Shown: positions 13,185 through 27,317 of the stretch, in pieces
Position numbering within the stretch: position 1 is the stretch's first letter
Layout: the number at the start of each line of letters is the position of its first letter
From: a virus
Length of the DNA stretch: 28,654 bases
Strand: one strand, 5' to 3'
Virus record (IMG/VR): IMGVR_UViG_3300043015_002321
Location: 1 to 28,654 of that record
Notes under the pieces: model-generated
Told to the model about the DNA's origin: nothing
Seen by the model: the letters and a program-made list of their open reading frames with translations, nothing else
The model's database searches: none
Program-made: the position numbers and the translations under genes

Positions 13185-13199
13185 GTAACATTTCATAAC
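13185..13199 (+). repeat. RTAAC direct repeat, site c
   Basis: GTAACATTTCATAAC on the plus strand: two RTAAC copies 10 bp apart, facing the plus-strand gene at 13244 and overlapping the start region of the minus-strand fibre gene. Member of the dispersed family seen also at 13880, 17363, 17585, 17840, 21902 and 27298. Confidence 0.6.
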
Positions 13200-13243
13200 A
13201 TTTTTTCAATGCGACGGGTGGAATTTGGTGATAGGTTGAAAAC

Positions 13244-13858
13244 ATGGCTTCCGACATCTTCGCCGACATTGACACCTCCGAACTGATGGAGGCGATGCAG
13301 TTTTATGAGAAAGTCACCAAAAAAGACGGGGTGGAGATCGTGAATCGTGCCGCAAAAAACGCCTGCATCGGCGGACGTGGATTGAAGGGAGCCTTGCAGC
13401 TCACGAAGAAGGCCGATTCCAAAGCCATCACCAAGTTTTCCCCTGCCAGGAAACGCGGGCGGGAATACGAGAACAACCTTTTCAATGCACTGGCCGCGAA
13501 AGGCGAGACGCGATTCGGAAAGGCTGTTCGCGGGAAGGGAAACCGAGCGAAGGCAATGGAGATTTACAACAGCCGGAAGCAGGCGATCGGATTTTCCAAA
13601 GCAATCTGGATTCAGATTGCGAAAGACCTTGGGGCCAATCTGAAAAGTAAGTTTTCCCTCAAAGGGAGTGCGCGAGGAACGAAGGCCACCTTCGCCCGTA
13701 TGAAGGCGACCATCGAAACCGGAACCCTGGAGGATGACCACGTTTCCCGCATTATGCAAGACGCCCTCCAGGAAGGCGTGAACAATGCCGCGGTTGATAT
13801 GCGCGAGTATGCACAGAAGAAACTGGAAGCCCGCGCCAGGCAATTTTCAGGACGATGA
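13244..13858 (+). CDS. Putative phage tail/head-completion-like protein
   Basis: 204 residues, basic (many Lys/Arg, GKAVRGKGNRAKA), helical, with a pattern of an N-terminal acidic helix (ELMEAMQFYEK), then EIVNRAAKNACIG and a C-terminal helix (AAVDMREYAQKKLEARARQ). The layout resembles HK97 gp10-like head-tail proteins and is loosely like the truncated gene at the left window edge. A Shine-Dalgarno-like AGG lies 8-10 bases before ATG. An opposite-strand frame of 216 codons covers the same DNA but is judged a shadow. It is odd for such a gene to stand alone on the plus strand between lysis and integrase genes, so a different function is possible. Confidence 0.6.
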   Translation: MASDIFADIDTSELMEAMQFYEKVTKKDGVEIVNRAAKNACIGGRGLKGALQLTKKADSKAITKFSPARKRGREYENNLFNALAAKGETRFGKAVRGKGNRAKAMEIYNSRKQAIGFSKAIWIQIAKDLGANLKSKFSLKGSARGTKATFARMKATIETGTLEDDHVSRIMQDALQEGVNNAAVDMREYAQKKLEARARQFSGR

Positions 13859-13879
13859 AAAACCCTCTGTATTCTCATC

Positions 13880-13901
13880 AAATAACGATCAAATAACGAT
13901 C
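13880..13901 (+). repeat. 11-bp tandem repeat with ATAAC cores, site g
   Basis: AAATAACGATC occurs twice in a row (13880-13890 and 13891-13901), immediately followed by AAAC. The ATAAC cores are 11 bp apart and face the plus-strand gene at 13916, whose ATG is 14 bases further on. It belongs to the dispersed RTAAC-repeat family or is a close variant with CGAT instead of CATT. Confidence 0.65.
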
Positions 13902-13915
13902 AAACATTCAGAAAA

Positions 13916-14092
13916 ATGAACGAAACCATGAAAGAATTCTGTGAATGCGGGAACGAGCTTCCCGATAAAAACCTGCACGTTTGCCCCGATTGCCTCTTCT
14001 TTGAGCGGGCCGACGAAAAACGAGTGTTTGGTGTGTCCGGTTGGGCGCTCGAAAAGGTGGAACGGGAACTGGATGAAAAGAAAGGGAATTGA
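13916..14092 (+). CDS. Small zinc-ribbon-like protein
   Basis: 58 residues. Two Cys pairs: FCECGNE (C9, C11) and HVCPDC (C23, C26) make a likely four-Cys zinc-binding knuckle, with acidic and basic residues after it and a helical Glu/Lys-rich C-terminus. Such tiny zinc ribbons are common in phage early regions and bind nucleic acid or protein. ATG 13916 lies 14 bases after the tandem AAATAACGATC repeat. A second ATG is four codons further in. Too short for many gene finders, but composition and position support it. Confidence 0.6.
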   Translation: MNETMKEFCECGNELPDKNLHVCPDCLFFERADEKRVFGVSGWALEKVERELDEKKGN

Positions 14093-14102
14093 TTCTGTCG
14101 CT

Positions 14103-14309
14103 ATGTCGAGAAACTTTCGACATGGTGACAAAACAGAGCGGCCCGACCTTTCCGGCTACGGATACCACCTTTCGGATAACGATTGCCACATACACGGAAA
14201 ACCGGACGGCGGCTACGTGACGCCCGAGGAGCACAAAGAAGAGGAATTCTTCGCCGCTGCTGCTGCCCTCCTTGATGCTACGCCGCTTTCCGAACCTTCT
14301 GCCGGGTGA
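14103..14309 (+). CDS. Small His/Asp-rich hypothetical protein
   Basis: 68 residues from ATG 14103, ten bases after the zinc-ribbon gene. The middle (GYHLSDNDCHIHGKPDGGYVTP) is rich in His, Cys, Asp and Gly, which could bind metal, and the C-terminus is an acidic then Ala-rich helix. The last 32 bases overlap the 3' end of the integrase gene on the other strand. A longer open frame begins at 13941 but runs through the zinc-ribbon gene in another phase and is less likely. Not recognised. Confidence 0.5.
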   Translation: MSRNFRHGDKTERPDLSGYGYHLSDNDCHIHGKPDGGYVTPEEHKEEEFFAAAAALLDATPLSEPSAG

Positions 14310-15513
14310 GACTCCAATACAAGTCAGACTCTTCCTTGCTCACCAGTTCGCGATAGCTCTGTTTCATTTCGCTGACGGTGTGGCCCATCATTTCCGCCGC
14401 CGCCCCGATGTGATCGCATTGCGGGATCAGGTGAGAGGCGCACGCTTTCCGGAGCCCGTTCGGAATCGGGGTCACTCCTGCCGCCTCGATCGCCTTCGCC
14501 AGTCGTTTCCGGTTCGTGCTTCCAATGCCGTTCTCGGTTTTTCCGTGGTAGACGGGGCCGGAAAAGCGGTTGAGCGGGATCAGCCAATCCACCAGGTTGG
14601 GCTGCATTTCGATAATGCGCGTTTGTCCCGTTTTCGTGATCGCCGACGTGGCGCGAATGATTCCCCGAACCGGATCCACATGTTTGCCCCACTCGACCCG
14701 GCATACCTCCGCCGATCGCAAACAGCCAAACGCCTGGAGCAACACCCAGGGCAGTAACTTTTCATCACATTTTGCAAGAATCGCGGCGATGTCCTCCGGA
14801 GAATAGCAGGAAATCGAGCGTATCTCCTTCACCTTCGGCAGATCGGAAACGGGGTTCCGGTTGGCGTAGCCTTTCCGCATCGCCCAATTGAAGACCGTAA
14901 CGAGACTTCCGCGGTGATTGTTGTAGGTTTTCGGCTCCCCTCCCCATTCCTCAAGGAACCGTTCCATTTCCGTTTTCCCGAGCGAGCCGATTTCCCGCGT
15001 GGGAAAACGCTCACAAAGACGAAAGAGGGTCAGGTTTTGATCTCGCCGGTATCGCTCCGACTTCCCGAGCCGCTCCAGTTCCGCTTTCAATTCCGTAGCG
15101 ACCTGTTCCACCGTGGCCGATTGCGCCGGGTTGCGTTGCAGGAAATCCGATACCGCCTCCGATGGGGTTTTCCCGGTAGGCTCCAGCGAATCCAGAAAGC
15201 CCCGGTATTCGCGGCAGACTTCCGCCGGTTTCCGGCCCGTGCCGAAAAGGGCATCTTTCGCCCCGAGAATTTCGAGGCGGTCGTGTCGGGTCAGATTCGA
15301 TTCTGTGCGACCCTTTGCCAGTTCCTCCGCGATCTGTTTCGCCCGACGTTGGGCCCGCTTCGGGTCGTGCTTGTCGACCGCCAGCATGGTGTGACGTTGT
15401 TTCCCTTCGCCGTCAAACCAGGAAAGACGATCCCGGGGACTCCCGTTCACCATTTTCCGCGCGCCGTAGACGTGAAAACGCCCGTTCTTCGAAGTTACCA
15501 GCCAATCCGCCAT
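14278..15513 (-). CDS. int: Tyrosine-type phage integrase
   Basis: 411 residues. Arm-binding and core-binding parts (1-220) precede the catalytic domain: R266 in FGCLRSAEVCR, K294 in ITKTGQT, N352-G-L-R355, GH at 377-378 and Tyr387 in QSYREL. The usual HxxR box starts with Asn instead of His. It would recombine attP with a host attB, probably a tRNA end, since a tRNA 3'-end fragment lies at 17441-17480. ATG 15513 lies just downstream of the terminase stop, so they may share a transcript. The catalytic-domain style, with SYREL at the Tyr, recalls integrases from Verrucomicrobiota; that is a weak host hint. The gene is convergent with the gene at 14103. Confidence 0.93.
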   Translation of the reverse strand: MADWLVTSKNGRFHVYGARKMVNGSPRDRLSWFDGEGKQRHTMLAVDKHDPKRAQRRAKQIAEELAKGRTESNLTRHDRLEILGAKDALFGTGRKPAEVCREYRGFLDSLEPTGKTPSEAVSDFLQRNPAQSATVEQVATELKAELERLGKSERYRRDQNLTLFRLCERFPTREIGSLGKTEMERFLEEWGGEPKTYNNHRGSLVTVFNWAMRKGYANRNPVSDLPKVKEIRSISCYSPEDIAAILAKCDEKLLPWVLLQAFGCLRSAEVCRVEWGKHVDPVRGIIRATSAITKTGQTRIIEMQPNLVDWLIPLNRFSGPVYHGKTENGIGSTNRKRLAKAIEAAGVTPIPNGLRKACASHLIPQCDHIGAAAEMMGHTVSEMKQSYRELVSKEESDLYWSLTRQKVRKAA

Positions 15514-15524
15514 AACTTCTCATA

Positions 15525-17354
15525 TCATTTTTTCATTTTGGCCGCAATTAATTTGTATTGAGGCCGGAGAACCCGTTCCGCACCGATCGCGTAGACCATC
15601 GTATCGAGCGGTTCATTTCTGGCGCGGTTCACATTTTCGAAGAAACGGACAAACTCACCCGTTTGGGTGCTCCGTTTCATGCGCGATTCCTCCGCCGTCA
15701 GTCCCTCGAAATAGCCGGTTCCCTCCCCGCCGGCCATCGGGCCGAATTCGTCCAGCTTGGGAACGTGGATATACCCCCGGGGGAATGATCCGCCCTCCTT
15801 CGGTGGAGGCAGGGCAAGGGATTGGTAAATCAAGTCCTTCGCCTCATGGGTTCCAACGTGGTATTGCGGAATCCGCCGGTTCCCCACCGCCGTGGGTCGA
15901 CCATCCATCAAAGGCCGGTCGATCGCTTTCGCCCCTTTGCAGGCGTAAACCCTCTGCCGGGTTCGCGGGAAGGTATATTGAAAGATGGAATCCTGCCATT
16001 TTCCGGAATCCACAAAGGTGCAGGCAATTTTGAGCGGCTGTTTCGCAATCGGATGATTCCATTCAAAGTCCCGCAGCTCGTCGACCTGTCGCCAGGTTTC
16101 CGGCGAAAGAGGCGACCCGGGAAAGATCCGGTAGGCCAAACACCACATTTCCCGATTCTCCCCGAATCCGATCACCTGGGCTTCCAGTCGGTCTTTCTGG
16201 CAGTCAATTCCCATCGTGATGACGAGAACCCCCGCCGGAAGCGTCTCAGTTGGCTTGTATAGCTCCCGACGCTGATACAGGGCGTGCGCCTCCGGTTTCT
16301 CTTCCGTGGCTTCTGCGTAGCTCTCTGCGTCCATCGTGTTCACGAACACCCTGCGGGCTTTCTCCGGATTCTCTGATTTTTTGACCCGTTCCTGTTCCGC
16401 CGCGACTTCGTGCAGGTATCCGGAATAAGCGGAATCATGGTCGCCCGTGTGCGCCATGCAACCGAGATGGAAGCCTCGAGCGCCGACCGGTTCCGGTTCC
16501 TCCAGGTTCTTGTTGAGGTAGCGTCCCTCCTTTGCCATCGCAAAGCGGGCCTGTTCATCGTGCTTCGTTCCGCATTCAGGGCAGGCAATCCGCGCCGTTT
16601 CCGGTTGGCCCGGGGTCCAGATCATTTGCCGGGTGTGCATTTCCCATAAATGCCCGCATTCCAGGCAATCCGCATACCAACGGCATCGGTCGGAAAGTTC
16701 GTAGTAGCTATCAATTTTCGATGCCCCTTTCAGCGACGGATACGAAGAACGCCATTTGAACTGCTCCCGCCTTCCCCGTCCGCGTTTCTCGAACTGCGCC
16801 ACCTTATCCCCCTCATCAGCGGAATCCTGTGTGATCGCGTCACACTCATCCGTGTACATCAAATCCGCTTCCAGTCGGCGAATCTGGCCAGAACTGTTCG
16901 CCCCGATCGCATACACCTCAGCGCCGGTCGTCCAGCTTTTGTAGCGTTTGAGATCCCGCGTTTTTTCGAGATCCTGAATTACCGGGGTTGCCTGGAAGAT
17001 TTTCTCCAGCTTTTCATTCACCCAATCTTCCGCCAGGATCTGGTTGGGAAACATCACCGCAGCGGCCATCCGGAGCTGTTCCACCGCATAGCAGAAGCCC
17101 GCCCCGAAAAGGTAGGTCTTCCCAGCTCCCGAAAACGCCCGAATTGAAATCGAGGTCAGCATCGGATTAAACAAATCCTTAGCCGGTTGAACCTGCGTGG
17201 GTCGAAACTGGAACGGCGTTCCGTCCGGATTAAGAATATGCTTCGGGGCCCAATCCGTGAATTCCAGCTTAGGCCGGTGAATCAGAAGCTCATCGGCGGC
17301 CCGCTGGATCTGTCGGGCCAGGGTAATCTGGCCGATGGTGTAGGCGTCAGGCAT
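15525..17354 (-). CDS. Terminase large subunit, lambda GpA-type
   Basis: 609 residues. Walker A FSGAGKTY (74-81), Walker B LMYTDECDA (165-173), a Cys4 zinc knuckle (C230-x2-C233 and C258-x2-C261), and nuclease-domain acids in MGIDCQKDRLE (D384) and TFVDSG (D449). This is the GpA family, which cuts concatemeric DNA and pumps it into proheads using ATP. The length is close to that of other GpA proteins. The ATG is eight bases from a triple RTAAC element, so any transcript starting there would have a very short leader. No small terminase or portal is next to it, and the integrase follows directly, which is an unusual order. Confidence 0.93.
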   Translation of the reverse strand: MPDAYTIGQITLARQIQRAADELLIHRPKLEFTDWAPKHILNPDGTPFQFRPTQVQPAKDLFNPMLTSISIRAFSGAGKTYLFGAGFCYAVEQLRMAAAVMFPNQILAEDWVNEKLEKIFQATPVIQDLEKTRDLKRYKSWTTGAEVYAIGANSSGQIRRLEADLMYTDECDAITQDSADEGDKVAQFEKRGRGRREQFKWRSSYPSLKGASKIDSYYELSDRCRWYADCLECGHLWEMHTRQMIWTPGQPETARIACPECGTKHDEQARFAMAKEGRYLNKNLEEPEPVGARGFHLGCMAHTGDHDSAYSGYLHEVAAEQERVKKSENPEKARRVFVNTMDAESYAEATEEKPEAHALYQRRELYKPTETLPAGVLVITMGIDCQKDRLEAQVIGFGENREMWCLAYRIFPGSPLSPETWRQVDELRDFEWNHPIAKQPLKIACTFVDSGKWQDSIFQYTFPRTRQRVYACKGAKAIDRPLMDGRPTAVGNRRIPQYHVGTHEAKDLIYQSLALPPPKEGGSFPRGYIHVPKLDEFGPMAGGEGTGYFEGLTAEESRMKRSTQTGEFVRFFENVNRARNEPLDTMVYAIGAERVLRPQYKLIAAKMKK

Positions 17355-17362
17355 TCCATCAC

Positions 17363-17384
17363 GTTACGATGTTATCAATGTTAC
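17363..17384 (-). repeat. RTAAC triple direct repeat, site b, before terminase
   Basis: On the minus strand GTAACATT, GATAACAT and CGTAAC follow each other, so three RTAAC cores with 9 and 8 bp steps. TTGACG lies at its upstream edge, 17 bp before TAACGT, so the last copy could serve as a -10 element. It ends eight bases before the terminase ATG. Confidence 0.6.
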
Positions 17385-17440
17385 GTCAAAACACCGAAAA
17401 CGGGAAACCCTTATAGAATAAGCCCTAGAGCGTGGAAGAA

Positions 17441-17480
17441 AAGCGGAGCGGACGGGACTTGAACCCGCGCAACGGTTTCT
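17441..17480 (-). tRNA. tRNA 3'-end fragment, probable phage attachment core
   Basis: On the minus strand the T arm is GCGGG, TTCAAGT, CCCGT (17452-17468), followed by the 3' acceptor strand CCGCTCC and discriminator G. Before it lies AAACCGTTGC. The matching 5' acceptor strand (GGAGCGG) and D arm are not present in the next 100 bases, so this is only the 3' part of a tRNA. Phages that integrate into tRNA genes carry such a fragment in attP, and one prophage end keeps it. The integrase gene is about 2 kb away, with the terminase in between. It could alternatively be a leftover prophage boundary. Confidence 0.6.
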
Positions 17481-17584
17481 TGTGGGTGGGTTGTAGTTAC
17501 GAAATGGGCTTAAAATGGCTCTTTGCGGGGCTGTTTACGGCTTTTCCGTCCTTTCAAATCGAATCGTTTTCCGATTTTTGGAAT

Positions 17585-17598
17585 GTTATTTATGTTAT
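17585..17598 (-). repeat. RTAAC direct repeat, site f
   Basis: ATAACATAAATAAC on the minus strand, two ATAAC cores 9 bp apart, overlapping the stop codon of the gene at 17590. The next annotated feature downstream is the tRNA fragment and then the terminase. The following bases (ATTCC) match those after the single ATAACATTCC copy at 23830. Confidence 0.5.
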
Positions 17599-17838
17599 TT
17601 TCTCTCTGAGATCCATGCTGACTATCTCTATTTCAACTTTCGCCACTGCCCTTCGGAATGCTGAGATATGCCCAAGCCATTGACCACGAAGGTAGTCACC
17701 TTTTTCGCGAGATGGGAAGTTGGCTTCTAGATTCTCTATCTCATTCATGAAGTTTTGGCGTAGACGCATCAGAGGTTCCTTAAGTTTTTTTCCTCGGTCG
17801 ATTTCGTCTCGCTTCTCTTTTCTTGGTTCAGTTTTCAT
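17590..17838 (-). CDS. Small charged helical protein
   Basis: 82 residues from ATG 17838; an upstream TTG would overlap the repeat element. It is rich in Lys, Arg and Glu and looks wholly helical (KKLKEPLMRLRQNFMNEIENL; FRRAVAKVEIEIVSM). No Cys, no membrane span. The DNA is more A+T-rich than the neighbouring tail genes. RTAAC repeats flank it on both sides: one covers its start region, the other its stop. Last gene of the tail arm before the tRNA fragment. Function unknown; a moron or regulatory product is possible. Confidence 0.55.
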   Translation of the reverse strand: MKTEPRKEKRDEIDRGKKLKEPLMRLRQNFMNEIENLEANFPSREKGDYLRGQWLGHISAFRRAVAKVEIEIVSMDLREKIT

Positions 17839-17839
17839 C

Positions 17840-17854
17840 GTTATCAAATGTTAC
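17840..17854 (-). repeat. RTAAC direct repeat, site d
   Basis: GTAACATTTGATAAC on the minus strand, cores 10 bp apart, filling nearly all of the gap between the stop of the gene at 17851 (whose TAA is the first core) and the ATG at 17838. TTGGTA lies 17 bp before the second TAAC. Because the ATG follows at once, it can hardly be a promoter for that ATG. Confidence 0.5.
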
Positions 17855-18696
17855 ACAGGATACCAATCATCCGAAGTTGTCCAGAATTCATTTGCGGAGA
17901 TGCTTACTGAATAGGTCAATCCTCCGTCGAGGTCTTCGTAGGTCCAGACGGGGACTCCTAGAAAATTGAAGTTCGTATCAAGGGTCTTCCCTGTTATCCA
18001 GGTATCCACGGCATTCAGGCCGATGACGCGGATTCGGTTGGAGGTTCCGGCGTCGGAATCGGAATAGTTGAGCGTTGCCGAAAGGTTGGGAAGGAGTGCG
18101 GTATCTACGGGGGCGGCGAAAAGGTTCTCGACGGGGAATCGCGCGCCAAGCCCGATCGTGAGGGAGAGGGAAAGAAACTCGGTTCCGTCGCTGTCGGAGA
18201 ATGTCCCCGAGGCCCCGAATTTGTATCTCTTGCCGGAAAGGGGACGGGTTCCCGGGCTCCCGTTCGATCCGCTGGCCCCTGCGTAGATGGTTTCCGAAAT
18301 GCTCTTTCCGCCGGCGCTGGCTGTCACCTGCCATGTCTTCACGTTGTAGTAGGCATTGCAGATCAGATCCTCATAGTAGAGCGGGTCTGTATCGCCGCGG
18401 TCTTCTGCGGTAAAGGGAGCATGTTCGGCGGGAACGTAGCCGTTTCCGATCGAGTCGACATCGCGAAGGTTGAGGACTTCGGCGAGTGGTTCGCCAAATT
18501 CTTCGGATTGCGACCAGGGGAAGGTTTCGGTTTGTCCTCCGACGCCGATGTAATATTCATCCGGTGTCGCGGCTTCGTCGATGGTGACGGCGTCCTCCGG
18601 TGTGTAACTGCCGGTGCTGTTGAGCGTCGATACGGGAACACTGGAGCGATGGCCCCGGGTGTAGAATCTGCCGGTGAAAATGGGAAACTCGCTCAT
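17851..18696 (-). CDS. Putative distal tail/tip protein
   Basis: 281 residues starting in an ATGA overlap with the gene upstream. Strand-rich and Ser/Thr/Gly/Asp-rich, with phrases typical of beta-sandwich virion proteins (GTFSDSDGTEFLSLSLTIGLG; TLNYSDSDAGTSNRIRVIG; GVPVWTYEDLDGGLTYSVSI). Aromatic-rich C-terminus ending NEFWTTSDDWYPV. No catalytic motif. As the third gene after the tape measure it likely belongs to the tail tip or baseplate. The family is not recognised. Confidence 0.65.
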   Translation of the reverse strand: MSEFPIFTGRFYTRGHRSSVPVSTLNSTGSYTPEDAVTIDEAATPDEYYIGVGGQTETFPWSQSEEFGEPLAEVLNLRDVDSIGNGYVPAEHAPFTAEDRGDTDPLYYEDLICNAYYNVKTWQVTASAGGKSISETIYAGASGSNGSPGTRPLSGKRYKFGASGTFSDSDGTEFLSLSLTIGLGARFPVENLFAAPVDTALLPNLSATLNYSDSDAGTSNRIRVIGLNAVDTWITGKTLDTNFNFLGVPVWTYEDLDGGLTYSVSISANEFWTTSDDWYPV

Positions 18697-19346
18697 GCCG
18701 TGATTTCACGACAGGAGAGAGACGGGACCAGCTCAAACGCGGAAACAACGTGCCCGGCGTCGTCCTCCTGTCGGGTGAGAATGAATTGCAGGTGATTGGC
18801 GGGGCACATCTTCCGCGCGTAGATGGTATCAGAAACGGAAACGGAAAAAGGTTCCCGGGGCTCCCCTTCTGCCGGTGGCGCTACGAATTCGTAAAGGGGA
18901 TAGTAATACTTCTCCACCTTCCACAGTCCCGACACTTCCACGGTGTCGATCGGCATCGGGTAGCCGGTCCATTGCGAAATCATTTTGAGTTCCGTGGTCA
19001 GGTCCGGTTCCACTTCGAGAACGAGGAATTTTCCCACCGCGGCGGTAAAAGTGGAATCAATCGCGGTGATGTCGACGGTTCCGGAATCGTCTAGGGCATT
19101 GGTTCGCTTGACGAAACCGGGGTTCACGATCTTGACGGTGTTGGTTGCCGCGTCCGTGATCGTCAGCGACCAGAGAACGAGGCCCGCGGTGTCGCCTCCT
19201 GCGGTGATCGGAGGGGGAACGACTCCGGCGCGGGATCGCTCCCAACCGGGCCGACCTTCGCACTGGATCCAGTTCTCATTGACTGCATCAATGATCTTGT
19301 TGAGGGTCTTTTTTGCGAAGCCCTTGTCTACCCGTTTGAGTCTCAT
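18693..19346 (-). CDS. Putative distal tail protein
   Basis: 217 residues. The N-terminus is helical and basic (LKRVDKGFAKKTLNKIIDAVNE), then a strand-rich body (LVLWSLTITDAATNTVKIVNP; GKFLVLEVEPDLTTELKM; YPLYEFVAPPAEG). The initial pattern, a helix ending in an Asn-rich segment before a strand domain, recalls phage proteins that present a collar of strands at the tail end. A 10-bp hairpin separates it from the gene upstream. Its ATGA end overlap with the next gene shows translational coupling. Role inferred from position. Confidence 0.62.
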   Translation of the reverse strand: MRLKRVDKGFAKKTLNKIIDAVNENWIQCEGRPGWERSRAGVVPPPITAGGDTAGLVLWSLTITDAATNTVKIVNPGFVKRTNALDDSGTVDITAIDSTFTAAVGKFLVLEVEPDLTTELKMISQWTGYPMPIDTVEVSGLWKVEKYYYPLYEFVAPPAEGEPREPFSVSVSDTIYARKMCPANHLQFILTRQEDDAGHVVSAFELVPSLSCREITA

Positions 19347-19359
19347 GGTTGGTTTTTCG

Positions 19360-19390
19360 GTGAGCGATATTTTCTCCGTTTATCGCTCAC
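19360..19390. other. 10-bp perfect stem-loop immediately after a stop codon
   Basis: GTGAGCGATA (19360-19369) and TATCGCTCAC (19381-19390) pair perfectly around an 11-base loop. On the minus strand the stem begins at the base after the TAA of the 19391 gene and ends 14 bases before the next ATG at 19346. There is no T-run after it, so an mRNA-processing, stability or ribosome-access role fits better than termination. Confidence 0.7.
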
Positions 19391-20023: not shown

Positions 20024-21864
20024 CAGGCGGAAAGGCCCTCCCGTAATAGACTCACTTCCTCTTTCATCAGGTCGATTTGTTCTCCGAGTCGGTCGTTGGT
20101 GGTTTCCACAGTGCCGTCTTTCTTGGCGATGGCGGCTCCTGCCTTCGCTCCTACGGCTTTCACGTCTCCGATTCCCCCGGTTCTGAGTCCGGAGGCGATG
20201 CCGAGGCGTTCGCGATCCTTGGCAAAGGAAGTTGCAGTGCCGACACCTATGCCCGCGGCTTTTTGTGCCTGGAGTTTGTCAAAGGCTCCCATGAGGGCCG
20301 GATTCTTTTTCAGCGCGATGTGGGGGGAAATGTGAACCGCTGGCTTGTTCATCAGATCGCGGGAAGGTCCAACAAAATCATCCCCGGGAGATCCAAAGGT
20401 TTTTTGCAGTCGATCGCCTTTCAGGCTGTCTTTTCGGATTGCTCCGTTTCTGTCGGTGGCCGATTTCCCGTTTCCACCCTGATTCCCCGCTGCGTCGTTG
20501 AGTTCTTCTTTCCCCTTATCAACGATGTCAGACAAACTTGTCCGTAAATTTTTGAGGGCATCATTCAACCCGAAGGGGTCTTCGTCGGATTTCATTTTCT
20601 CCGCGAAATCTTTCATACCCTGGGCCATTTTATCCCCGAGGGTTTCGCCACTGTCTTCGGCTTGACTATTGAGAAGTTTTTTCAGTTCCCTGACTTGAAC
20701 CCAGACCGGTTTTGTGGCGATAGAGGCGACTGCTAAAAGGGTTTTTTTGAGATCATCCCCCCATTTTTCCGTAACCTTTTTCAATACGAAATTGAAGGCG
20801 ATTTCCGCAAGAGTTGCCGCCATTTTAATCGTCTTCACCAACTGATTTCCCATGAAAGCGGCAACCACTTTCAGCATCAAAAGGAGAACAGTTTTTGCCC
20901 CGTCCACATCGAGGCCGGCGAGAAACTGCGGGCCCAACTGGCTGAAATCCAGCTTTCCAAGAGTGGAATTCAGTGCCGTGGTGATTTTGGTGATGGCAAT
21001 GGCGAGGCCCTCCCCGAGTTTGCCCGCCATGGTCGTCAGCTCCTGGATCTTCTTGATTCCGAATTCGAGCAAAGGTTTCAAAGCGTTGTTGATCGGCTCG
21101 CCAAATTTCGTTTTGAATTCGTCCCAATTCGAGGAAAGCGTAGAAATGAGGCCGGCGAAGGTGACGGATTGTTTTTTCAACATCCCTTCAAAAAGTCCCC
21201 CTTCCGCCGAAAGACCGGCAAGGGCTTTCCGCACGTCCTCGAACTTCAAACCCTTCTGAATCGCTTTCTGGAGAGCTTCGCCGGTCAACCCGGTGTTTTT
21301 CTCCAGTTCCGGCATGAGATTGATTCCACGTTCCAGGAATTTGTTCAGTTCCTCCGTTTGGAATTTACCTTTCGCGAATCCTTTCGCCATCGCATCGGAC
21401 AATTCCCCCACCTGTTCGGTGTCGCTGGAAACAGCCGCGATTTCCTTGAGCACGTCGACGACTTCATCCCCGGCGATTCCCGCCCCGAGAAGTTTATTCG
21501 TCGCCTCCTGCAATCCCCTCGTTTCAAACGGGGTCACCACAGAGAAAGCCGAAATTTTGTCCAGGACCGCCCGGGCTTTGTTGGCATCGCCCAGAAACGC
21601 GGTCATGCGTACACTGATTCCCTCATACGAGGAAGCCATTTTGGACGATGCCGCGACCAGTTTTCCGACTCCCACCACCGCCGCGGAAAACGTAATCGCC
21701 GAGGCAATAGTCGCGACTTTGGCGATAATCCCGCCAATCTTTTGAAAAGACGCCCGAACCGACTTTGCCGTGGCAGAAGCCGACATCCGGACTTTCCGCA
21801 CACCGGCGGAAAACGCGGTAGCGTCCAGGGAAATCGTGCTTTTTAGGTTTGCGGTTGCTGCCAT
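20023..21864 (-). CDS. Tail tape measure protein (minus-strand tail module)
   Basis: 613 residues. The N-terminal part has the classic tape measure pattern: a first strand/helix (LKSTISLDATAFSAGVRKVR), a hydrophobic Ala/Val/Ile segment (IIAKVATIASAITFSAAVVG), then the recognisable block EGISVRMTAFLGDANKARAVL through VTPFETRGLQEATNKLLGAGI (tape_meas_nterm-like). A second hydrophobic region near 300-360 and a charged C-terminal half follow. It sets tail length and would imply a tail of about 90 nm. The G/GT chaperone genes lie directly upstream. An RTAAC repeat is in the gap, 38 bases before the ATG. Confidence 0.9.
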   Translation of the reverse strand: MAATANLKSTISLDATAFSAGVRKVRMSASATAKSVRASFQKIGGIIAKVATIASAITFSAAVVGVGKLVAASSKMASSYEGISVRMTAFLGDANKARAVLDKISAFSVVTPFETRGLQEATNKLLGAGIAGDEVVDVLKEIAAVSSDTEQVGELSDAMAKGFAKGKFQTEELNKFLERGINLMPELEKNTGLTGEALQKAIQKGLKFEDVRKALAGLSAEGGLFEGMLKKQSVTFAGLISTLSSNWDEFKTKFGEPINNALKPLLEFGIKKIQELTTMAGKLGEGLAIAITKITTALNSTLGKLDFSQLGPQFLAGLDVDGAKTVLLLMLKVVAAFMGNQLVKTIKMAATLAEIAFNFVLKKVTEKWGDDLKKTLLAVASIATKPVWVQVRELKKLLNSQAEDSGETLGDKMAQGMKDFAEKMKSDEDPFGLNDALKNLRTSLSDIVDKGKEELNDAAGNQGGNGKSATDRNGAIRKDSLKGDRLQKTFGSPGDDFVGPSRDLMNKPAVHISPHIALKKNPALMGAFDKLQAQKAAGIGVGTATSFAKDRERLGIASGLRTGGIGDVKAVGAKAGAAIAKKDGTVETTNDRLGEQIDLMKEEVSLLREGLSA

Positions 21865-21901
21865 GAATCAGGGTTCCGGACGGAATCAGCAGCCGGAACA
21901 G

Positions 21902-21916
21902 GTTACAACATGTTAT
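21902..21916 (-). repeat. RTAAC direct repeat, site e, before tape measure
   Basis: ATAACATGTTGTAAC on the minus strand, cores 10 bp apart, 38 bases upstream of the tape measure ATG. TTGATT lies 17 bp before the second TAAC (TAACCT), so the site can be read as a promoter with an upstream copy in its spacer. Confidence 0.55.
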
Positions 21917-21924
21917 CGTTCAAA

Positions 21925-22155
21925 TCAAGACTCCCCGAGCCATTCGTCCGCCCATTCGCCGAGGGTTTCCATAACCTGTTTTCTCAGGCTGGTTCCGCCG
22001 GTGGGTTTCATCTTCACATTTTGACGCATCAGGCCGATGCTTTTGAGCTGGAGAAGGCGCGGCAGGTGGGTATCCATGATTTCATCGGGGCTCATGCTTC
22101 CTTCGGTGGCGATCGAGACGAACGAAATCAGTTCGGCCCAATCGCCTATGACTCC
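21925..22155 (-). CDS. Tail assembly chaperone C-terminal extension (gpT-like, by -1 frameshift)
   Basis: A 76-codon segment in the -1 frame of the upstream gene, directly before the tape measure gene. It has no convincing start codon of its own near the overlap; the frame is open back to 22368 only as shadow. The peptide (GDWAELISFVSIATEGSMSP; LPRLLQLKSIGLMRQNVKMK) is helical and compact. This is the standard arrangement of the lambda G/GT pair, where a few ribosomes slip back one base and make a fusion that guides tape measure folding. The run of five G at 22154-22158 (GTG GGG GAG) is the likely slip site. Confidence 0.75.
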   Translation of the reverse strand, partial: GVIGDWAELISFVSIATEGSMSPDEIMDTHLPRLLQLKSIGLMRQNVKMKPTGGTSLRKQVMETLGEWADEWLGES

Positions 22156-22709
22156 CCCACGCTTTCGCCGCTCGAGAGTCCGGTGGAATCCACTTCGGCG
22201 GAGGCGGAAATGATGGCATTCACGATTTCGGAAAAGGCGTCCAATACCTCCCCGTGCCGTGGGCTCCCGATGGTGATTCGGTGCTGGTCCATCCATGCCA
22301 TTGCTTCGGCCTGCACCGCAGTCGGAACGCGAAGGGCTTTCATCGCGACGGACTTGGGACGGGTGCAAAGGAAGATGGCAAGAATCGAATCCATGAAAAT
22401 TCCGTTGTAGGTGTTCGTTGCCTGCAATTCCTCGACCGCTTCCTGATCGAAGTTCAGAAACTTCATGCCGATGGACTGCGCCGCGGCCTGCCGTCGGGGA
22501 CTGAATGCCTGGAGTTTGCAGGCTCCGCCCCCGGGACCACCGAAAGAGAGATCGCGCCAGGCGTCGTTCTCCAGCAGAAAGGCGAGATCCTTTTCCGAAT
22601 GGGTCACGGTTTCCAGGCCGCTTTCTTCGTCGATCGTTTCCACCTCCGTTTCCGGTGCAATTTCGAGGCGGGGCAGGGTGTCGGTCGGGGTATCAGTTGT
22701 CAGGTCCAT
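22146..22709 (-). CDS. Tail assembly chaperone (gpG-like)
   Basis: 187 residues from ATG 22709, chosen because it overlaps the upstream stop by ten bases; an upstream start at 22853 lies in another gene. Acidic N-terminus (TDTPTDTLPRLEIAPETEVE), helical middle (RRQAAAQSIGMKFLNFDQEAV), and a short tail. Located two steps before the tape measure with a -1 frame extension, as in phages with a G/GT chaperone. It keeps the tape measure soluble and helps tail-tube assembly. The identification rests on gene order and frame relation more than on sequence. Confidence 0.75.
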   Translation of the reverse strand: MDLTTDTPTDTLPRLEIAPETEVETIDEESGLETVTHSEKDLAFLLENDAWRDLSFGGPGGGACKLQAFSPRRQAAAQSIGMKFLNFDQEAVEELQATNTYNGIFMDSILAIFLCTRPKSVAMKALRVPTAVQAEAMAWMDQHRITIGSPRHGEVLDAFSEIVNAIISASAEVDSTGLSSGESVGES

Positions 22710-23410
22710 CGTTCCAGTAGTTCTTTGAAGTGTGGGCCCTTTTCCAAGACGAGAGGCGGGAGGCCGTTTCCCCGATTGATTCGGATGCTTTGAGGAGCAT
22801 CTTTCCACAAATTGCGAAGTTCCAGGAGGTTGGCGCGGTAGCTTTTGAGCCATGCGACGATGGCCGGTTGCCAGTTTCGCGCCAATTTTTGAGCGATGGT
22901 CTTCCGGCCTTTCGGAGATCGCATTTCGGCGCTTTCCAGTGCCTCCGTGGAAAAGTAGTCGAGCGCGAGAATGGCCTTCTTTTCCTCGTCACTCGGATGG
23001 AACACGTCGGGCAGTTGGACCCGCCCGAGGGAGTGAAGCTTCATGTAGGCGACCGCGGCCCCCATGTAGAGAGAATCGAAGGAGAAAATCAGTTGCTGGA
23101 CGGTCTGCGGGTCGCTCGCGCTCTGGATGCGGGCGGGCAGGGATTCCGCCTCGCGTAACGCGGTTTCCGGATCTTTCCAGACGGTCACGAATTCGTTAAT
23201 ATTGATACCGTTCGCGAGGAGCGGTAAATACATCCGAACGTCACCGGGTTGCCCGGGTTCGTATTTGTGTTCGCTGTCGTAGCAGTTCGAAACTTTGGGA
23301 GTTCCTTCTGCGAGGTCGAATCCCACCGAAGCGGCAGCGGCTGCGAAATGCAGACGGGAATCGGTGTCGGTTTGTATGGCTTTGAAGCCAAGATCGAGGT
23401 GTTCTTTCAT
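22700..23410 (-). CDS. Hypothetical tail-module protein
   Basis: 236 residues between the tail-tube gene and the chaperone. Starts with MKEHLDLGFKAIQTDTD; the mid-part (VQQLIFSFDSLYMGAAVAYMK) is hydrophobic-helical, and a basic helix (KGRKTIAQKLARNWQPAIVAW) follows. No signal or catalytic motif. In related phages this slot often holds a tail-tube-associated or unknown structural protein. It overlaps the next gene by ten bases, so it is co-translated with the chaperone. Function not recognised. Confidence 0.6.
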   Translation of the reverse strand: MKEHLDLGFKAIQTDTDSRLHFAAAAASVGFDLAEGTPKVSNCYDSEHKYEPGQPGDVRMYLPLLANGININEFVTVWKDPETALREAESLPARIQSASDPQTVQQLIFSFDSLYMGAAVAYMKLHSLGRVQLPDVFHPSDEEKKAILALDYFSTEALESAEMRSPKGRKTIAQKLARNWQPAIVAWLKSYRANLLELRNLWKDAPQSIRINRGNGLPPLVLEKGPHFKELLERWT

Positions 23411-23441
23411 ACGTCTTCTCCGGTATCAGCCCGACACCTCT

Positions 23442-23825
23442 TTACGCAACGGTGACGCCATCCAGGCGGGTGAGGGTGATAGAGGCGGACTGGAACGCAT
23501 CGCGGGAAGCGGAGAGCTCCAGATCGTCGAGGGTGTAGTCTCCGGTCGTCGTGCCGTACGCGTCGGTGGCGTTGGCAACGGTCAGAGCCGCGCCATACGA
23601 AGCCGAAAAGACTGCGGTAAGGGCCGTTTTGATCTCGCCCTCCAACGTGGCGGTCGAGGAAGGGTCGTAGTCGTAGGCGTAGCCGGTGCGGCCCCCGTAG
23701 CGGTCGAAGATGTATTCTTTCGGGTTGTCGAAACGCTCGCGAAACGAAGAAATATTGATGCCTGCTTCAGCGGAGGTAATCCCCCGAACCTGAGAGCCTG
23801 CTTGAACGTAGGAAGGTGCTGCCAT
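23442..23825 (-). CDS. Major tail (tube) protein candidate
   Basis: 127 residues. Strand-rich with a typical tail-tube ending (YGTTTGDYTLDDLELSASRD, then SITLTRLDGVTVA) and an N-terminal AAPSYVQAGSQVRGITSAEA. Size and position, after the connector genes and before the chaperone, are as expected for a small siphovirus tail-tube subunit, the most abundant tail protein. A single ATAACATTCC copy lies just before the start. An alternative is another small structural protein of the neck, but the placement favours the tube. Confidence 0.68.
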   Translation of the reverse strand: MAAPSYVQAGSQVRGITSAEAGINISSFRERFDNPKEYIFDRYGGRTGYAYDYDPSSTATLEGEIKTALTAVFSASYGAALTVANATDAYGTTTGDYTLDDLELSASRDAFQSASITLTRLDGVTVA

Positions 23826-23855
23826 GATATGGAATGTTATTTGTGGGTGGTGGAA

Positions 23856-24281
23856 TTATGCGGCGGCGTCAGACACCTCTTGTGTCTGTGCCCAAATTCC
23901 AAAATTGTATTGAAAGTTTTCGTCGAGTTGCTGGCCCGATTTGGTGTTGCCGTCGATCTCGACCGCCTGCCCCTGAGGCATGACAAAGGAACCTGTTCCC
24001 TGCGTGCGGAGGGATCCGGCCAGCTCGTTGGCGTTGTCCATGAGTTCTTCCAGGTTGTGCAGGTCGGAATCGGAAAAATTGCCGTGAGCGATCACATTGA
24101 CATCGTGCGCGAAAATGCCGCTGGTGGGTGGATCCTCCGAAACGCGGACGGCGCGAACGAGAATGTAATCTTTTCCCGCCTCATCGGTTTCCCCGAAGTG
24201 GAGCGTCTGCGCATCGGTGAGCACAGCGGCAATCACTGCCTCTGTTGCCTCCTCAATGCGTTGCGCGAGCGGTTTTGCCAT
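23856..24281 (-). CDS. Head-tail joining/tail terminator-like protein
   Basis: 141 residues from ATG 24281 (MAKPLAQRIEEATEA), one base after the upstream stop; the longer frame to 24371 is discarded. N-terminal helix, then strands (KDYILVRAVRVSEDPPT; VNVIAHGNFSDSDLHNL) and a helix with acidic side chains. This helix-strand order fits tail terminator or neck proteins (gpU-like), which sit between connectors and the tail tube. No catalytic motif. The assignment comes from order: capsid, two small connectors, adaptor, this gene, tube. Confidence 0.65.
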   Translation of the reverse strand: MAKPLAQRIEEATEAVIAAVLTDAQTLHFGETDEAGKDYILVRAVRVSEDPPTSGIFAHDVNVIAHGNFSDSDLHNLEELMDNANELAGSLRTQGTGSFVMPQGQAVEIDGNTKSGQQLDENFQYNFGIWAQTQEVSDAAA

Positions 24282-24282
24282 G

Positions 24283-24594
24283 TTACGGGGAAATGAGGTC
24301 CAGACGGGTGCAGACGGTTCCTTCGGTCGTTCTCTGCGTGATCCGGTATTCCGTGCCGGAAATGTCAACAACGGTGGCCCGGGTGATCGCGGGAAGAGCG
24401 GTCGTCAAGACGGTGATCGCGGTTTCGGTTTCAAACTGCGTTGCCCCGTCCCCGTCGATCTCATGGCCGGTTTGCAGATCAAGCGGAAGAATGGCCTTGA
24501 TGTTCTCCGTTCCGCCGATCGTCACAAGCGCGCCGGAAACCTCATAGGCTTCATCAAATGCGCGGGTGTGATCGGTTGTGAGCGAAAGTGCCAT
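24283..24594 (-). CDS. Head-tail connector/adaptor-like protein
   Basis: 103 residues, Thr-rich and strand-rich (DLQTGHEIDGDGATQFETETA; GTEYRITQRTTEGTVCTRLDL). Similar short beta-barrel stoppers lie between capsid and tail genes in many siphoviruses. Its ATG comes directly after the T-run of an intrinsic terminator, so it is probably translated from read-through transcript or from its own start nearby. No catalytic or metal motif. Confidence 0.6.
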   Translation of the reverse strand: MALSLTTDHTRAFDEAYEVSGALVTIGGTENIKAILPLDLQTGHEIDGDGATQFETETAITVLTTALPAITRATVVDISGTEYRITQRTTEGTVCTRLDLISP

Positions 24595-24596
24595 TT

Positions 24597-24636
24597 AAAA
24601 AAATGACCCGGCGGAATCCCGAAGAATCCCGCCGGG
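24597..24636 (-). terminator. Intrinsic terminator within the head operon
   Basis: On the minus strand CCCGGCGG (24636-24629) and CCGCCGGG (24614-24607) form an 8-bp G+C stem with a 14-base loop, followed by TCA and seven T (24603-24597). It lies after the gene at 24675 and its T-run ends only three bases before the ATG of the gene at 24283-24594, so it would partly terminate the head transcript. Confidence 0.8.
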
Positions 24637-24674
24637 CCGGTTGGGGCTGATACCGTCGATGACGGATAAAAAAC

Positions 24675-24989
24675 TTATTTTGCTTTGGGCGGCTTCGGTG
24701 AAAGTTTGCTTTCTTCCGGCTGGACCGGATCGGGTGCGGGTCGTGCTTGCAGGAGGGAATCGGCGGCTTTAAGAATCAGTTCCGGTTCATAGCCGAGTAG
24801 CTTTCCCGCCTCTTTCCGGTCGTTTTCGTCGCACTTGTCGAACGCGGCCTTGTTGCGTTCCACATCATCGAGAATGCCGACTGCCGTTCCGGTGGAATGG
24901 CGGAGACTGTGGAGGAATTGCGCGGCCTTGGTGGCTCCGTTCGGGAGGGTTCCCGGGGCCAGGTAAGAGGGTAGAGAGGAAATTCGCAT
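24675..24989 (-). CDS. Hypothetical head-module protein
   Basis: 104 residues from ATG 24989, which overlaps the upstream stop as TGATG; an in-frame TTG one codon earlier is less likely. The middle is helical and acidic (VGILDDVERNKAAFDKCDEND), and the C-terminus is Pro/Lys-rich and flexible (PDPVQPEESKLSPKPPKAK). It resembles small accessory capsid-region proteins in composition only. It is bracketed by the gene at 24989 and a strong terminator. Function unknown. Confidence 0.55.
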   Translation of the reverse strand: MRISSLPSYLAPGTLPNGATKAAQFLHSLRHSTGTAVGILDDVERNKAAFDKCDENDRKEAGKLLGYEPELILKAADSLLQARPAPDPVQPEESKLSPKPPKAK

Positions 24990-25180
24990 CAATCAGACTT
25001 GCTAACCTTTTTCTTTGGGGCCGGTTTGGGCTCCTGCTTCGGAATCTCTCCTTTGAAAATGACCGCGCCGCCGGCAAGCAATGCGCCGATATGCTGGTCA
25101 TTGTCGGACTCGATAATGGTCCCCTTCTTTTGTGGCTCGCCTTTGTAGCGGAGACCGTCGCGAATGACTTTAACTTTCAT
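24989..25180 (-). CDS. Small phage protein, DUF7210-like
   Basis: 63 residues. It begins MKVKVIRDGLRYKGE, then a Lys/Gly turn and IIESDNDQHIGALLAGGAVIF, a pattern common in tiny phage proteins coded just after the capsid gene (a small barrel with Lys/Pro-rich tail PKPAPKKK). It follows the capsid gene after a hairpin terminator. Its ending overlaps the next ATG (TGATG). Structural or assembly role inferred. Confidence 0.6.
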   Translation of the reverse strand: MKVKVIRDGLRYKGEPQKKGTIIESDNDQHIGALLAGGAVIFKGEIPKQEPKPAPKKKVSKSD

Positions 25181-25193
25181 TGAATGAGGGGTA

Positions 25194-25228
25194 GGAAAAC
25201 CCCGCCCTTCCGTGAGGTCGGGCGGGGT
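25194..25228 (-). terminator. Intrinsic terminator after the capsid gene
   Basis: On the minus strand ACCCCGCCC and GGGCGGGGT pair as a 9-bp G+C stem with a 12-base loop (25228-25199) followed by TTTTCC. It lies between the capsid stop (25247) and the ATG at 25180, so the abundant capsid transcript would largely end here. Confidence 0.75.
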
Positions 25229-25246
25229 CCACTATGAATAGAGGGA

Positions 25247-27262
25247 TTAGGCGTGAGTCGTTCCGTTGTCTCCAATGATGAAGGCAGACGGCTGCTCAAG
25301 TCCGGTATCGGCGAATGCGTTAGCGAAGAGTTCGACCTGACCGGCGTTTTTGCTGGAGTATGGATCAACCACAAGGTCAATTCCTCCCCACATGGCAACC
25401 ATGAGGTAGCTGAAATCAGCGAGAACGACTTTGTTCGCGGTGATGTCGGTGTGATCGTAGTATTCGAAACCGAGGGCCCGCTGTGCGCCGGAAGGGGCTT
25501 CGTTGATAACGAAGGTATCATTTCCGGAAACTTTCGGAGTGGTCATCCAGTCCGCGGTGACACCAGGCTCGGAAAGCCACTTGGCGCGGCTCATCATCGG
25601 AAGCTTGTTGTCCCGAAGCTCTTTCCACTGGTCAACCGTGTTCTTGTGGCAGGAATCGCCAACAGCCCATGTTTTCGAGCCCGTGCCGGATGCGGCAAGT
25701 ACGCCCGTCATCGTGTCGCCAGTGCCGGGGCCGGTGAAGGCTCCGCGATCAATCGCAATCGCGATGTCGGCACCGAGGCGGCGGCGGATCCAGCTTTCGA
25801 AATCAATCGAGGACTGTGCCAGGAGTTGCAGCGAAACAGCGGTTCCGGCTCCGACACGTTTCGGCGAAAGAACGAGGTTCGCGGCAAACGTTGCATCTGC
25901 GTTGGCGATGGTGTCCGTTTCTGCATCCCACGTTCCGCTGTAACCGGCAGTCACGCGAGGGAAAGAGAGATTTCCGGTGGCATCGCGGAAGACCGTGGCA
26001 CCGAGCTTCGGGAGCAGGGAATAGTCTTCGAAATACTCGATCAGGGAACGCATTTCCGTGGCGACCGTGTTTCCGCCGGAGGTTCCGGTTCCTACAGTCG
26101 AAGCGTTGCGGATTCCGCCGGGGTCTCCGTGGGAAACTTCCCCAGGGATGAGAATTCCTTTCGGGCTTTCTCCGGTGGAATTGCGGAAACGGGAAGTCAG
26201 TTCCTCTTGAACTTCCTTCTCAAGCCCGGTCATGTTTCCGCCGCTCTTGGCGTATTCGCTGACAGCCTTGAGAATCGAGAAATTCTTTGCTTCGGGAGAT
26301 CCGATGTAAGTGGAATCGCCGCCCTTCTGCGCAACCGCAGCGCCAAAGGCTTCGGGGTTGAAATTCTCAATCACCTGGTTGCGGAATTCATCGAGCCCAA
26401 CTCCGTTGTCGATGGCTGCTTTGACTTCCTTGTCATCAACCTTGAAACGGTCGGCGATAGCTTCGATGCCTTCCCGGCGCGGCTTGTCCTGCGCGAGAAT
26501 GTCTTTGATGTTGGGGGCTTCCGGCGCTTTGTCCGGTGCGGGTTGTGGTTCACTCATAGGTGGTTCGGGTGTGTGATTGGTTGGGGTGGGTGTGGGTTCC
26601 GGCTTTTGCTCGGGTTCGGGTTCTTGGGGTGATTCCGTAGGGGCCGACGTGGAGCCGAAAACCAGTCCTGCAGGAAAATTGTTGTTCGGAAGTTTGGCCT
26701 TCCAATCTTCGGAGAGGGCCGCTGCTTTAACGGGCTCCAGCATGACGCTGGCGAAACCCTTCGAAACTGCTTCGGAACCGTCCATGTAGGTGGTCGCGTT
26801 CATCAGCTCCTGAATCTCGTCTTCGGAAAGGCCGGTGCGTTTGGCGTAGGCGCGAACGATGCCCGCCTGGATCTTCACCAGCGTTTCCGCCATGTTCGCC
26901 AGGTCGGTGGACTCTCCCCACGCTCCGGCAGTAGGATTGTGGATCATTTGGAAGGCGTTCTCGGGCTGTTCCACGGTGTCACACGCACAAAGAATCACCG
27001 AGGCCATTGAGCCTGCAAAGCCGACAACTCGACCGGTCACGGGGCCTTCGTGGGCTTTGATAACGTTGTAAATCGCCCAACCATCGAGAACCGAGCCCCC
27101 AGGGGAGTGGATCGAGAGGGAAACGGGTTGGCCTTTTTTCAGTCCCTTGAAGGACTCCATGAAAGCGCGCGCGGAACCTTCGCCGAATCCGATCTCGTCA
27201 TGGATCGAGATTTCAACGGTCTTTCCCTTGTCTTCAAATGTATACCAGGATGCCGGTTCCAT
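25247..27262 (-). CDS. ClpP-like prohead protease fused to HK97-fold major capsid protein
   Basis: 671 residues. Residues 1-200 are a ClpP-type protease with the full triad: Ser85 in GFAGSMAS, His108 in QMIHNP, Asp161 in YMDGSEAV; SIHSPGGSVLD (50-60) is the oxyanion strand. A Pro/Glu linker (207-250) follows, then a scaffold-like charged helix (250-310) and the HK97-fold capsid (about 310-671; VTAGYSGTWDAETDT, IAIDRGAFTGPGTG, YYDHTDITANKVVLADF). The protease would cut out the scaffold during maturation. Fusion is known in some phages. An internal ATG (codon 236, 26557) could let capsid be made alone. A 7-bp hairpin covers the start codon region, and an RTAAC repeat lies 36 bases upstream. Confidence 0.93.
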   Translation of the reverse strand: MEPASWYTFEDKGKTVEISIHDEIGFGEGSARAFMESFKGLKKGQPVSLSIHSPGGSVLDGWAIYNVIKAHEGPVTGRVVGFAGSMASVILCACDTVEQPENAFQMIHNPTAGAWGESTDLANMAETLVKIQAGIVRAYAKRTGLSEDEIQELMNATTYMDGSEAVSKGFASVMLEPVKAAALSEDWKAKLPNNNFPAGLVFGSTSAPTESPQEPEPEQKPEPTPTPTNHTPEPPMSEPQPAPDKAPEAPNIKDILAQDKPRREGIEAIADRFKVDDKEVKAAIDNGVGLDEFRNQVIENFNPEAFGAAVAQKGGDSTYIGSPEAKNFSILKAVSEYAKSGGNMTGLEKEVQEELTSRFRNSTGESPKGILIPGEVSHGDPGGIRNASTVGTGTSGGNTVATEMRSLIEYFEDYSLLPKLGATVFRDATGNLSFPRVTAGYSGTWDAETDTIANADATFAANLVLSPKRVGAGTAVSLQLLAQSSIDFESWIRRRLGADIAIAIDRGAFTGPGTGDTMTGVLAASGTGSKTWAVGDSCHKNTVDQWKELRDNKLPMMSRAKWLSEPGVTADWMTTPKVSGNDTFVINEAPSGAQRALGFEYYDHTDITANKVVLADFSYLMVAMWGGIDLVVDPYSSKNAGQVELFANAFADTGLEQPSAFIIGDNGTTHA

Positions 27263-27275
27263 AATTTCGGAACCG
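27254..27275. promoter_or_regulatory. Hairpin enclosing the capsid start codon
   Basis: CGGTTCC (27254-27260) pairs with GGAACCG (27269-27275) around an 8-base loop. On the minus-strand mRNA the AT of the AUG is in the loop and the G is the first base of the stem. It could limit translation initiation of the capsid fusion until opened. Confidence 0.5.
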
Positions 27276-27297
27276 TCAAAAACGAATCAGCCTCAGA

Positions 27298-27317
27298 TAA
27301 TGTTATCTAATGTTACC
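27298..27317 (-). repeat. RTAAC direct repeat, site a, before the capsid operon
   Basis: TAATGTTATC and TAATGTTACC stand head to tail on the plus strand (27298-27307 and 27308-27317), which on the minus strand is GTAACATTAGATAACATTA, cores 10 bp apart. TTGCGC lies 16 bp before the second TAACAT, so a promoter reading is possible. It faces the capsid gene, 36 bases away. Confidence 0.6.

Follow-up and report, generated by a model that had tools for sequence, protein, structure and literature searches.

Why does a short direct repeat, RTAAC(ATT), recur two or three times over in the gaps between genes of one phage genome, and which protein might read it? The phage is virus record IMGVR_UViG_3300043015_002321, analysed here over its whole length of 28,654 bases (the window); genes on its minus strand extend from 28.6 kb to 8.2 kb. 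An initial annotation had described two or three RTAAC cores 8–11 bp apart at seven gaps and had taken them for a phage-specific operator or late-promoter element. We find that two of these sites probably form the arms of a phage attachment site (attP) around a tRNA-derived core and, more tentatively, that the same protein may bind the other sites and control late genes.

Distribution of the RTAAC repeats

Same-strand RTAAC cores with starts 8–11 bp apart form eight pairs at exactly the seven places described, each in or straddling a gene gap, and occur nowhere else in the window. Dinucleotide shuffles (n = 300) had a mean of 0.09 such pairs and never more than 2, so the shuffled control that the annotation had proposed gave nothing like an equal frequency. 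For RTAACATT, the window has eight matches where 0.64 would be expected, and none of 100 shuffles reached eight. When 5-mers in which one position is two-fold degenerate were all ranked as paired motifs, RTAAC scored highest (9.69, compared with 5.08 for the next unrelated motif), and none of 40 shuffles equalled this score, the closest being a T-rich motif at 8.86. A chance origin of the repeats was rejected on the basis of these shuffle comparisons and the all-5-mer ranking.

Listed in full to a limit of 80 bp, RTAAC cores on the same strand are 8, 9, 9, 10, 10, 10, 10, 11, 17, and 50 bp apart, where 17 is the outer pair of a triple at 17362–17384. Because the distances cluster at 8–11 bp, the spacing of about one helical turn is sharp. 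In our gene model, which leaves 1,936 of the 28,654 bases as gene gaps, 29 of the 47 RTAAC cores are coding and 18 are non-coding, and 15 of the 47 are paired half-sites. TAACATT had also been thought to be confined to the seven gaps. It is indeed located in gaps, but an eighth place carries a single copy (23833–23839, minus strand); this unpaired ATAACATT (23833–23840) lies in a 30-bp gap and was not seen before the homologous gene in six relatives.

A tRNA fragment between two of the sites

The 235-bp gap between the terminase gene and the next small open reading frame (ORF), at 17355–17589, holds two of the seven sites, namely the triple at 17362–17384 (minus strand, spacings 9 and 8) and a pair at 17582–17598 (minus strand, spacing 9). 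Between them, at 17444–17480 on the minus strand, lies the 3′ half of a tRNA (37 nt) without its 5′ half, and no complete tRNA is present anywhere in the window. The stretch matches the 3′ ends of tRNAs; at all four plasmid loci that we fetched, ARAGORN found a tRNA (three Asp and one Gly) of which the matched stretch is the 3′ half. Where a phage encodes a tyrosine integrase, its attP core usually takes just this form, a tRNA 3′ half lacking the 5′ half. The window encodes such an integrase at 14278–15513 (minus strand; Pfam PF00589 at 34.6 bits, above the cut-off, and PHROG integrase), about 2 kb from the tRNA fragment, with the large terminase gene (15525–17354, minus strand, PHROG 15) in between. 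From the tRNA 3′ end to the nearer site there are 59 bp; 101 bp separate the opposite edge from the farther site, and the two arms are 197 bp apart.

We searched both 300-bp flanks of the core, whose limits (17440–17490) were set by eye, for all 5-mers paired 8–12 bp apart on the same strand. The only 5-mers paired on both sides were TAACA and AACAT, with a spacing of 9 on each side. Random centres in the window passed this flank test in 8 of 274 cases, and in 1 of 278 when the flanks were shortened to 150 bp. The two sites thus show the anatomy of arm-type sites, with paired repeats to either side of the core and a tyrosine integrase encoded by the element itself. Judging from this layout, they are probably the arms of attP, at which the integrase would dock for insertion into a host tRNA gene. 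The initial site list included both places without the tRNA 3′ half between them, the probable attP core. Because two of the seven sites flank this half with arm-site anatomy, a late-promoter element can describe the family only in part.

The P′ sites of lambda are the arm-type sites of a tyrosine integrase. Like them, and like those described in reports on Cluster J (PMC3706429) and Cluster K (PMC3203893) phages, the window sites are pairs or triples of same-orientation, ~10-bp repeats that flank a tRNA-derived core. According to these sources, the integrase contacts arm-type sites through its small N-terminal domain, the arm motif varies from one related phage to another, and Cluster J phages have arm-like sites at the start of the integrase gene as well as around the core. 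What sets the window apart from those attP arms is that five more copies lie at distances of up to 10 kb, in gaps that precede structural or small genes.

Arm sites of phages with similar integrases

A like arm layout is found in four phages with a tyrosine integrase similar to that of the window: the isolates Chambord (an Akkermansia phage), Chantilly, and Moulinsart, and record G004 (24.8% for the integrase), a relative found via another gene. Each has one motif family paired on both flanks of the attachment (att) core: GTAAC and its overlaps in Chambord (spacing 11), TACGC/CGCCA (TACGCC) in Chantilly (spacing 11), and GTGCA/TGCAT (GTGCAT) in Moulinsart (spacing 10). In G004, where a tRNA 3′ half lies beside the integrase gene and the core limits were likewise set by eye, GGCGA/GCGAA (GGCGAA) is the sole family on both flanks (spacing 10). 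In the three isolates, 14 of 310, 22 of 374, and 24 of 317 random centres passed the flank test. GTAAC is common to the arm motif of Chambord and the window motif, and the arm-to-arm distance in Chambord is 215 bp compared with 197 bp in the window. Pairs of the arm motif occur at att alone in the three isolates, and G004 has one extra pair. Because the four phages keep their arm motif essentially at att, a dispersal of arms over promoters would be a novelty.

Relatives of the window integrase were found in 3 of 50,697 phage records, all of them Akkermansia muciniphila phages, and in none of the viral_contigs or plasmids records. Because these relatives come solely from Akkermansia muciniphila phages, a Verrucomicrobiota host is likely for this phage. 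A distant match to the integrase is present in 28 of 100 genomes of the phylum of the sole genome hit (L126, genome G003), a phylum that may not be that of the host.

Sites at the other five gaps

Two of the other sites are on the plus strand. The pair at 13185–13202 (spacing 10) reads GTAACATT-TC-ATAACATT and lies in a divergent gap before the gene at 13244–13858; in the one comparable relative (L124/L127), the first copy is kept and the second is not. At 13882–13900 (spacing 11), ATAACGATCAA is repeated before the small gene at 13916–14092. The remaining three are minus-strand pairs with a spacing of 10. The pair at 17839–17854 spans both the stop of the gene at 17851–18696 and the beginning of a small ORF, and its first TAA doubles as the stop codon of the upstream gene. 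The pair at 21901–21916 lies over the promoter (TTGATT-17-TAACCT) of the tape measure gene (20023–21864, minus strand), and that at 27299–27316 over the promoter-like sequence TTGCGC-16-TAACAT before the gene of a fused head protease and major capsid protein (25247–27262, minus strand). These coordinates bear out the earlier statement that sites precede the capsid, tape measure, and terminase genes and two plus-strand genes. The sites are also oriented with transcription as claimed, with the reservation that the pair at 17585 is directly followed by the tRNA fragment and not by a gene start. By the coordinates, the start codon follows the last copy at 7, 12, 22, 41, 43, or 48 bp; at one site no start codon follows.

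As the annotation had noticed, a TTG lies 16–17 bp before the last copy at four of the seven sites (16 bp at 27305; 17 bp at 21905, 17843, and 17366), which puts that copy in the position of a sigma70 −10 element. Such a TTG is found at 3.0% of gap positions as background, which gives p ~3e-5 for a feature chosen after the fact. In the triple at 17362–17384, the last copy, immediately upstream of the terminase ATG (17354), follows TTGACG by 17 bp (TTGACG-17-TAACGT). Taking the first copy of a pair as the −10 element instead was tried and rejected, as no −35 element was seen by eye at the proper distance.

The position of the tape-measure promoter is conserved in relatives. TTGATT-16-TATATT precedes the gene in five of five records (L148–L152, with tape-measure proteins 45–61% identical, about two lineages by nucleotide identity), and L127 has TTGAAA-17-TAAGAT, so that the −10 element there is TATATT or TAAGAT compared with TAACCT in the window. 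The window alone bears repeats at this conserved promoter, where they appear to spoil the −10 element. Because the sites are poor −10 elements by this comparison, an operator laid over a promoter seems to fit better than a promoter element proper. The original interpretation therefore stands in part: repeats at one-turn spacing do cover promoter-like sequence, including a conserved tape-measure promoter, but the −10 elements are poor and some of the sites are linked to attP.

The early promoter of the same phage, TTGACT-16-TATATT at 6453, is canonical and lies in the early/switch gap (6406–6486) with two palindrome-like sites around it, TACTCAATGGGTA and TACTCATCGAGTA, which are probably the lysogeny operator. 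This gap contains no RTAAC pair and one single RTAACAT at 6412. Because the early promoter reads TATATT, TAAC is not simply the local form of the −10 element.

A possible role of the integrase at late promoters

We propose that RTAAC(ATT) may be the half-site of one phage-encoded protein, neighbouring subunits of which would bind one helical turn apart. The likeliest binder would be the tyrosine integrase, through an N-terminal arm-binding domain of ~70 residues, and the next likeliest its excisionase. The triple at 17362–17384 and the pair at 17582–17598 would serve as the two attP arms around the tRNA 3′-half core, and the same half-site would be used at the five other gaps, spaced 10–11 bp rather than 9. 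At three of these five, the sites would cover the spacer and −10 element of a sigma70-like promoter, where the bound protein would block RNA polymerase. The capsid, tape-measure, and terminase–integrase operons would thus be held down while the sites are occupied, during establishment and maintenance of lysogeny, and freed on departure of the protein. The identity of the binder, its being one protein at all seven places, and its repressive effect are what we infer here. Taken as a whole, attP arms together with repression of late promoters by the same protein, the proposal is plausible but falls somewhat short of probable. Its broadest form, in which the integrase or excisionase acts as a genome-wide regulator whose half-sites have spread from attP to five further gaps, those of the capsid, tape-measure, and small plus-strand genes among them, keeping late genes off and coupling excision to virion production, is decidedly tentative.

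Dual-role excisionases, of which P2 Cox is one, would be a close alternative binder, here as candidates only. RdfS (PMC11963761) and XisF4 of Pf4 (PMC7379572) have roles in excision and on promoters or expression, and RdfS reportedly has no apparent consensus motif. A precedent for repression from an arm site is the KplE1 prophage, for which PMC2951348 describes a P′1 arm site that overlaps the −10 element of the integrase promoter and repression of this promoter by integrase and TorI. As at KplE1 intS, an arm site, here the triple, lies over promoter-like sequence before the terminase–integrase gene pair of the window. Unlike KplE1, as far as that source describes it, where the only such promoter is that of the integrase inside att, the capsid and tape-measure promoters of the window would also be controlled, and repression of the KplE1 type would by analogy extend to them. 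Arm sites are normally viewed as parts of att that at most autoregulate the integrase gene. If the proposal is true, the integration state would be coupled directly, at the DNA level, to the virion genes without a separate late regulator. Even with another binder, the seven-site family would define a regulon motif for phages that probably infect Verrucomicrobiota, a group for which a limited literature search found no published regulatory site.

Several results weigh against this proposal. Conservation of the sites in related phages, which the annotation had named as a test, largely failed: RTAAC pairs are absent from the tape-measure gap in six of six relatives and from the gap before the capsid gene in five of five, and TAAC-N4-7-TAAC occurs in none of three wider relative records, with L127 among those without pairs. 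(These counts exclude L123, which is 99.7% identical to the window over 21030–26941 and represents the same phage.) Arm motifs differ between related phages, which would explain the absence of RTAAC from relatives with other lysogeny modules. Within the window, five of the seven places are outside the att gap, whereas the arm motif of the comparison phages is essentially confined to att, and the spacings of 9 and 8 at the att sites differ from the 10–11 elsewhere; this difference may reflect two binding modes, two proteins, or coincidence. The near arm is on the side of the tRNA 3′ end in the window but, as judged by eye, on the anticodon-loop side in the three isolates (52–55 bp from the core), which we count against strict homology of the layout. 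By a rough hand estimate, two of seven gap-confined sites would fall into one 235-bp gap with a chance of ~0.2, which is not rare. The tRNA half, allowing up to two mismatches, was found in none of 295 genomes of the L126/G003 phylum, which is possibly not that of the host, so that neither this result nor the distant integrase matches in that phylum say anything about the host. A model of the N-terminal 72 residues of the integrase (predicted local distance difference test score, pLDDT, of 76) gave generic Foldseek/VIA matches only and no arm-binding domain. A search against solved structures returned a single weak match (E 0.0016), to a chain with the name Gp33. A model of the complete integrase reached a pLDDT of 35 and was set aside.

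Alternative explanations

Instead of the integrase, a dedicated late-gene regulator, either an activator or a repressor, could read all seven gaps, in which case the proximity of the tRNA fragment would be a coincidence or a result of shared terminase–integrase regulation. This is a serious possibility, if a rather doubtful one. The half-sites are uniform, five of the seven sites are away from att, promoter-like sequence is covered at four of the seven, and the −10 elements are poor, as expected of activated promoters. Small proteins that might serve as such a regulator exist, among them a winged-helix-like protein (9206–9439, weak GntR match), whose gene adjoins a metallophosphatase gene. However, this protein is almost unchanged in L127, which has no pairs, and is therefore an unlikely reader of the motif. 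A dedicated regulator would also leave unexplained why this motif alone has pairs to both sides of the tRNA fragment and why Chambord has GTAAC arms. L5-type stoperators, which are short and asymmetric, are scattered over gene gaps and follow the direction of transcription; the window sites resemble them in dispersal and orientation. The window sites differ from stoperators, which are named in PMC3203893, in being paired direct repeats that are linked to attP and have no pairs in the early/switch region.

It is improbable that the repeats need no dedicated binding protein and simply belong to ordinary sigma70 promoters of the host, as −10-like elements in tandem. TAACAT agrees with TATAAT in four of six letters, and the TTG at 16–17 bp in four of the seven sites fits such promoters; yet the same phage uses TATATT in the 6453 early promoter, as relatives do for the tape measure gene, and three of the seven sites lack a TTG at the proper distance. 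Neither the second copy one turn upstream nor the overlap of the last copy at 17840 with the start codon region suits this explanation. Least credible of all are translational signals like the Start Associated Sequences of Cluster K mycobacteriophages, which PMC3203893 describes as short genome-wide repeats near gene starts. The RTAAC repeats do share with them an oriented, gap-confined location often near starts, and, by eye, most genes of the window lack a Shine-Dalgarno sequence. Unlike those sequences, however, they are paired at one-turn spacing and stand at variable distances from the start codon (7–48 bp, with no start at one site), and most of the window genes lacking a Shine-Dalgarno sequence do not have the motif.

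Other features of the window and of motif-selected contigs

The block at 13863–21940, which contains the integrase, terminase, attP, and tape measure, corresponds to ~0.8 kb in L127, where the tape measure gene is elsewhere. Both edges of this block adjoin RTAAC pairs (13882 and 21901). In L148 and L149, the terminase gene comes before the capsid gene, which is the usual order. A 52-bp element of nested inverted repeats at 6195–6246 is 98% identical in L127 (2727–2778) and L130 (4641–4692), phages that are otherwise diverged. It gave no Rfam match at the gathering score and is possibly a conserved RNA or recombination element.

At least 120 contigs were fetched with a 16-letter motif pattern, and many of them have further GTAACATT repeats. 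None of the seven that were compared had tblastx similarity to the window. Because these contigs were picked by the motif itself and the tested ones are unrelated to the window, they are not taken as evidence here. Several GTAACATT repeats with a period of ~10 bp are found in L078 (7926–7946 and 7633), L042, L027, L109 (5904–6128), L051 (1343–1503), and L111. Three tested motif-picked contigs encode a terminase (phrog_38), two of them together with a portal protein (phrog_1216), and in the three with listed ORFs the GTAACATT repeats lie outside long ORFs. L055 and L068 (14.1 and 14.7 kb) have inverted terminal repeats at both ends that are full of GTAACATT direct repeats.

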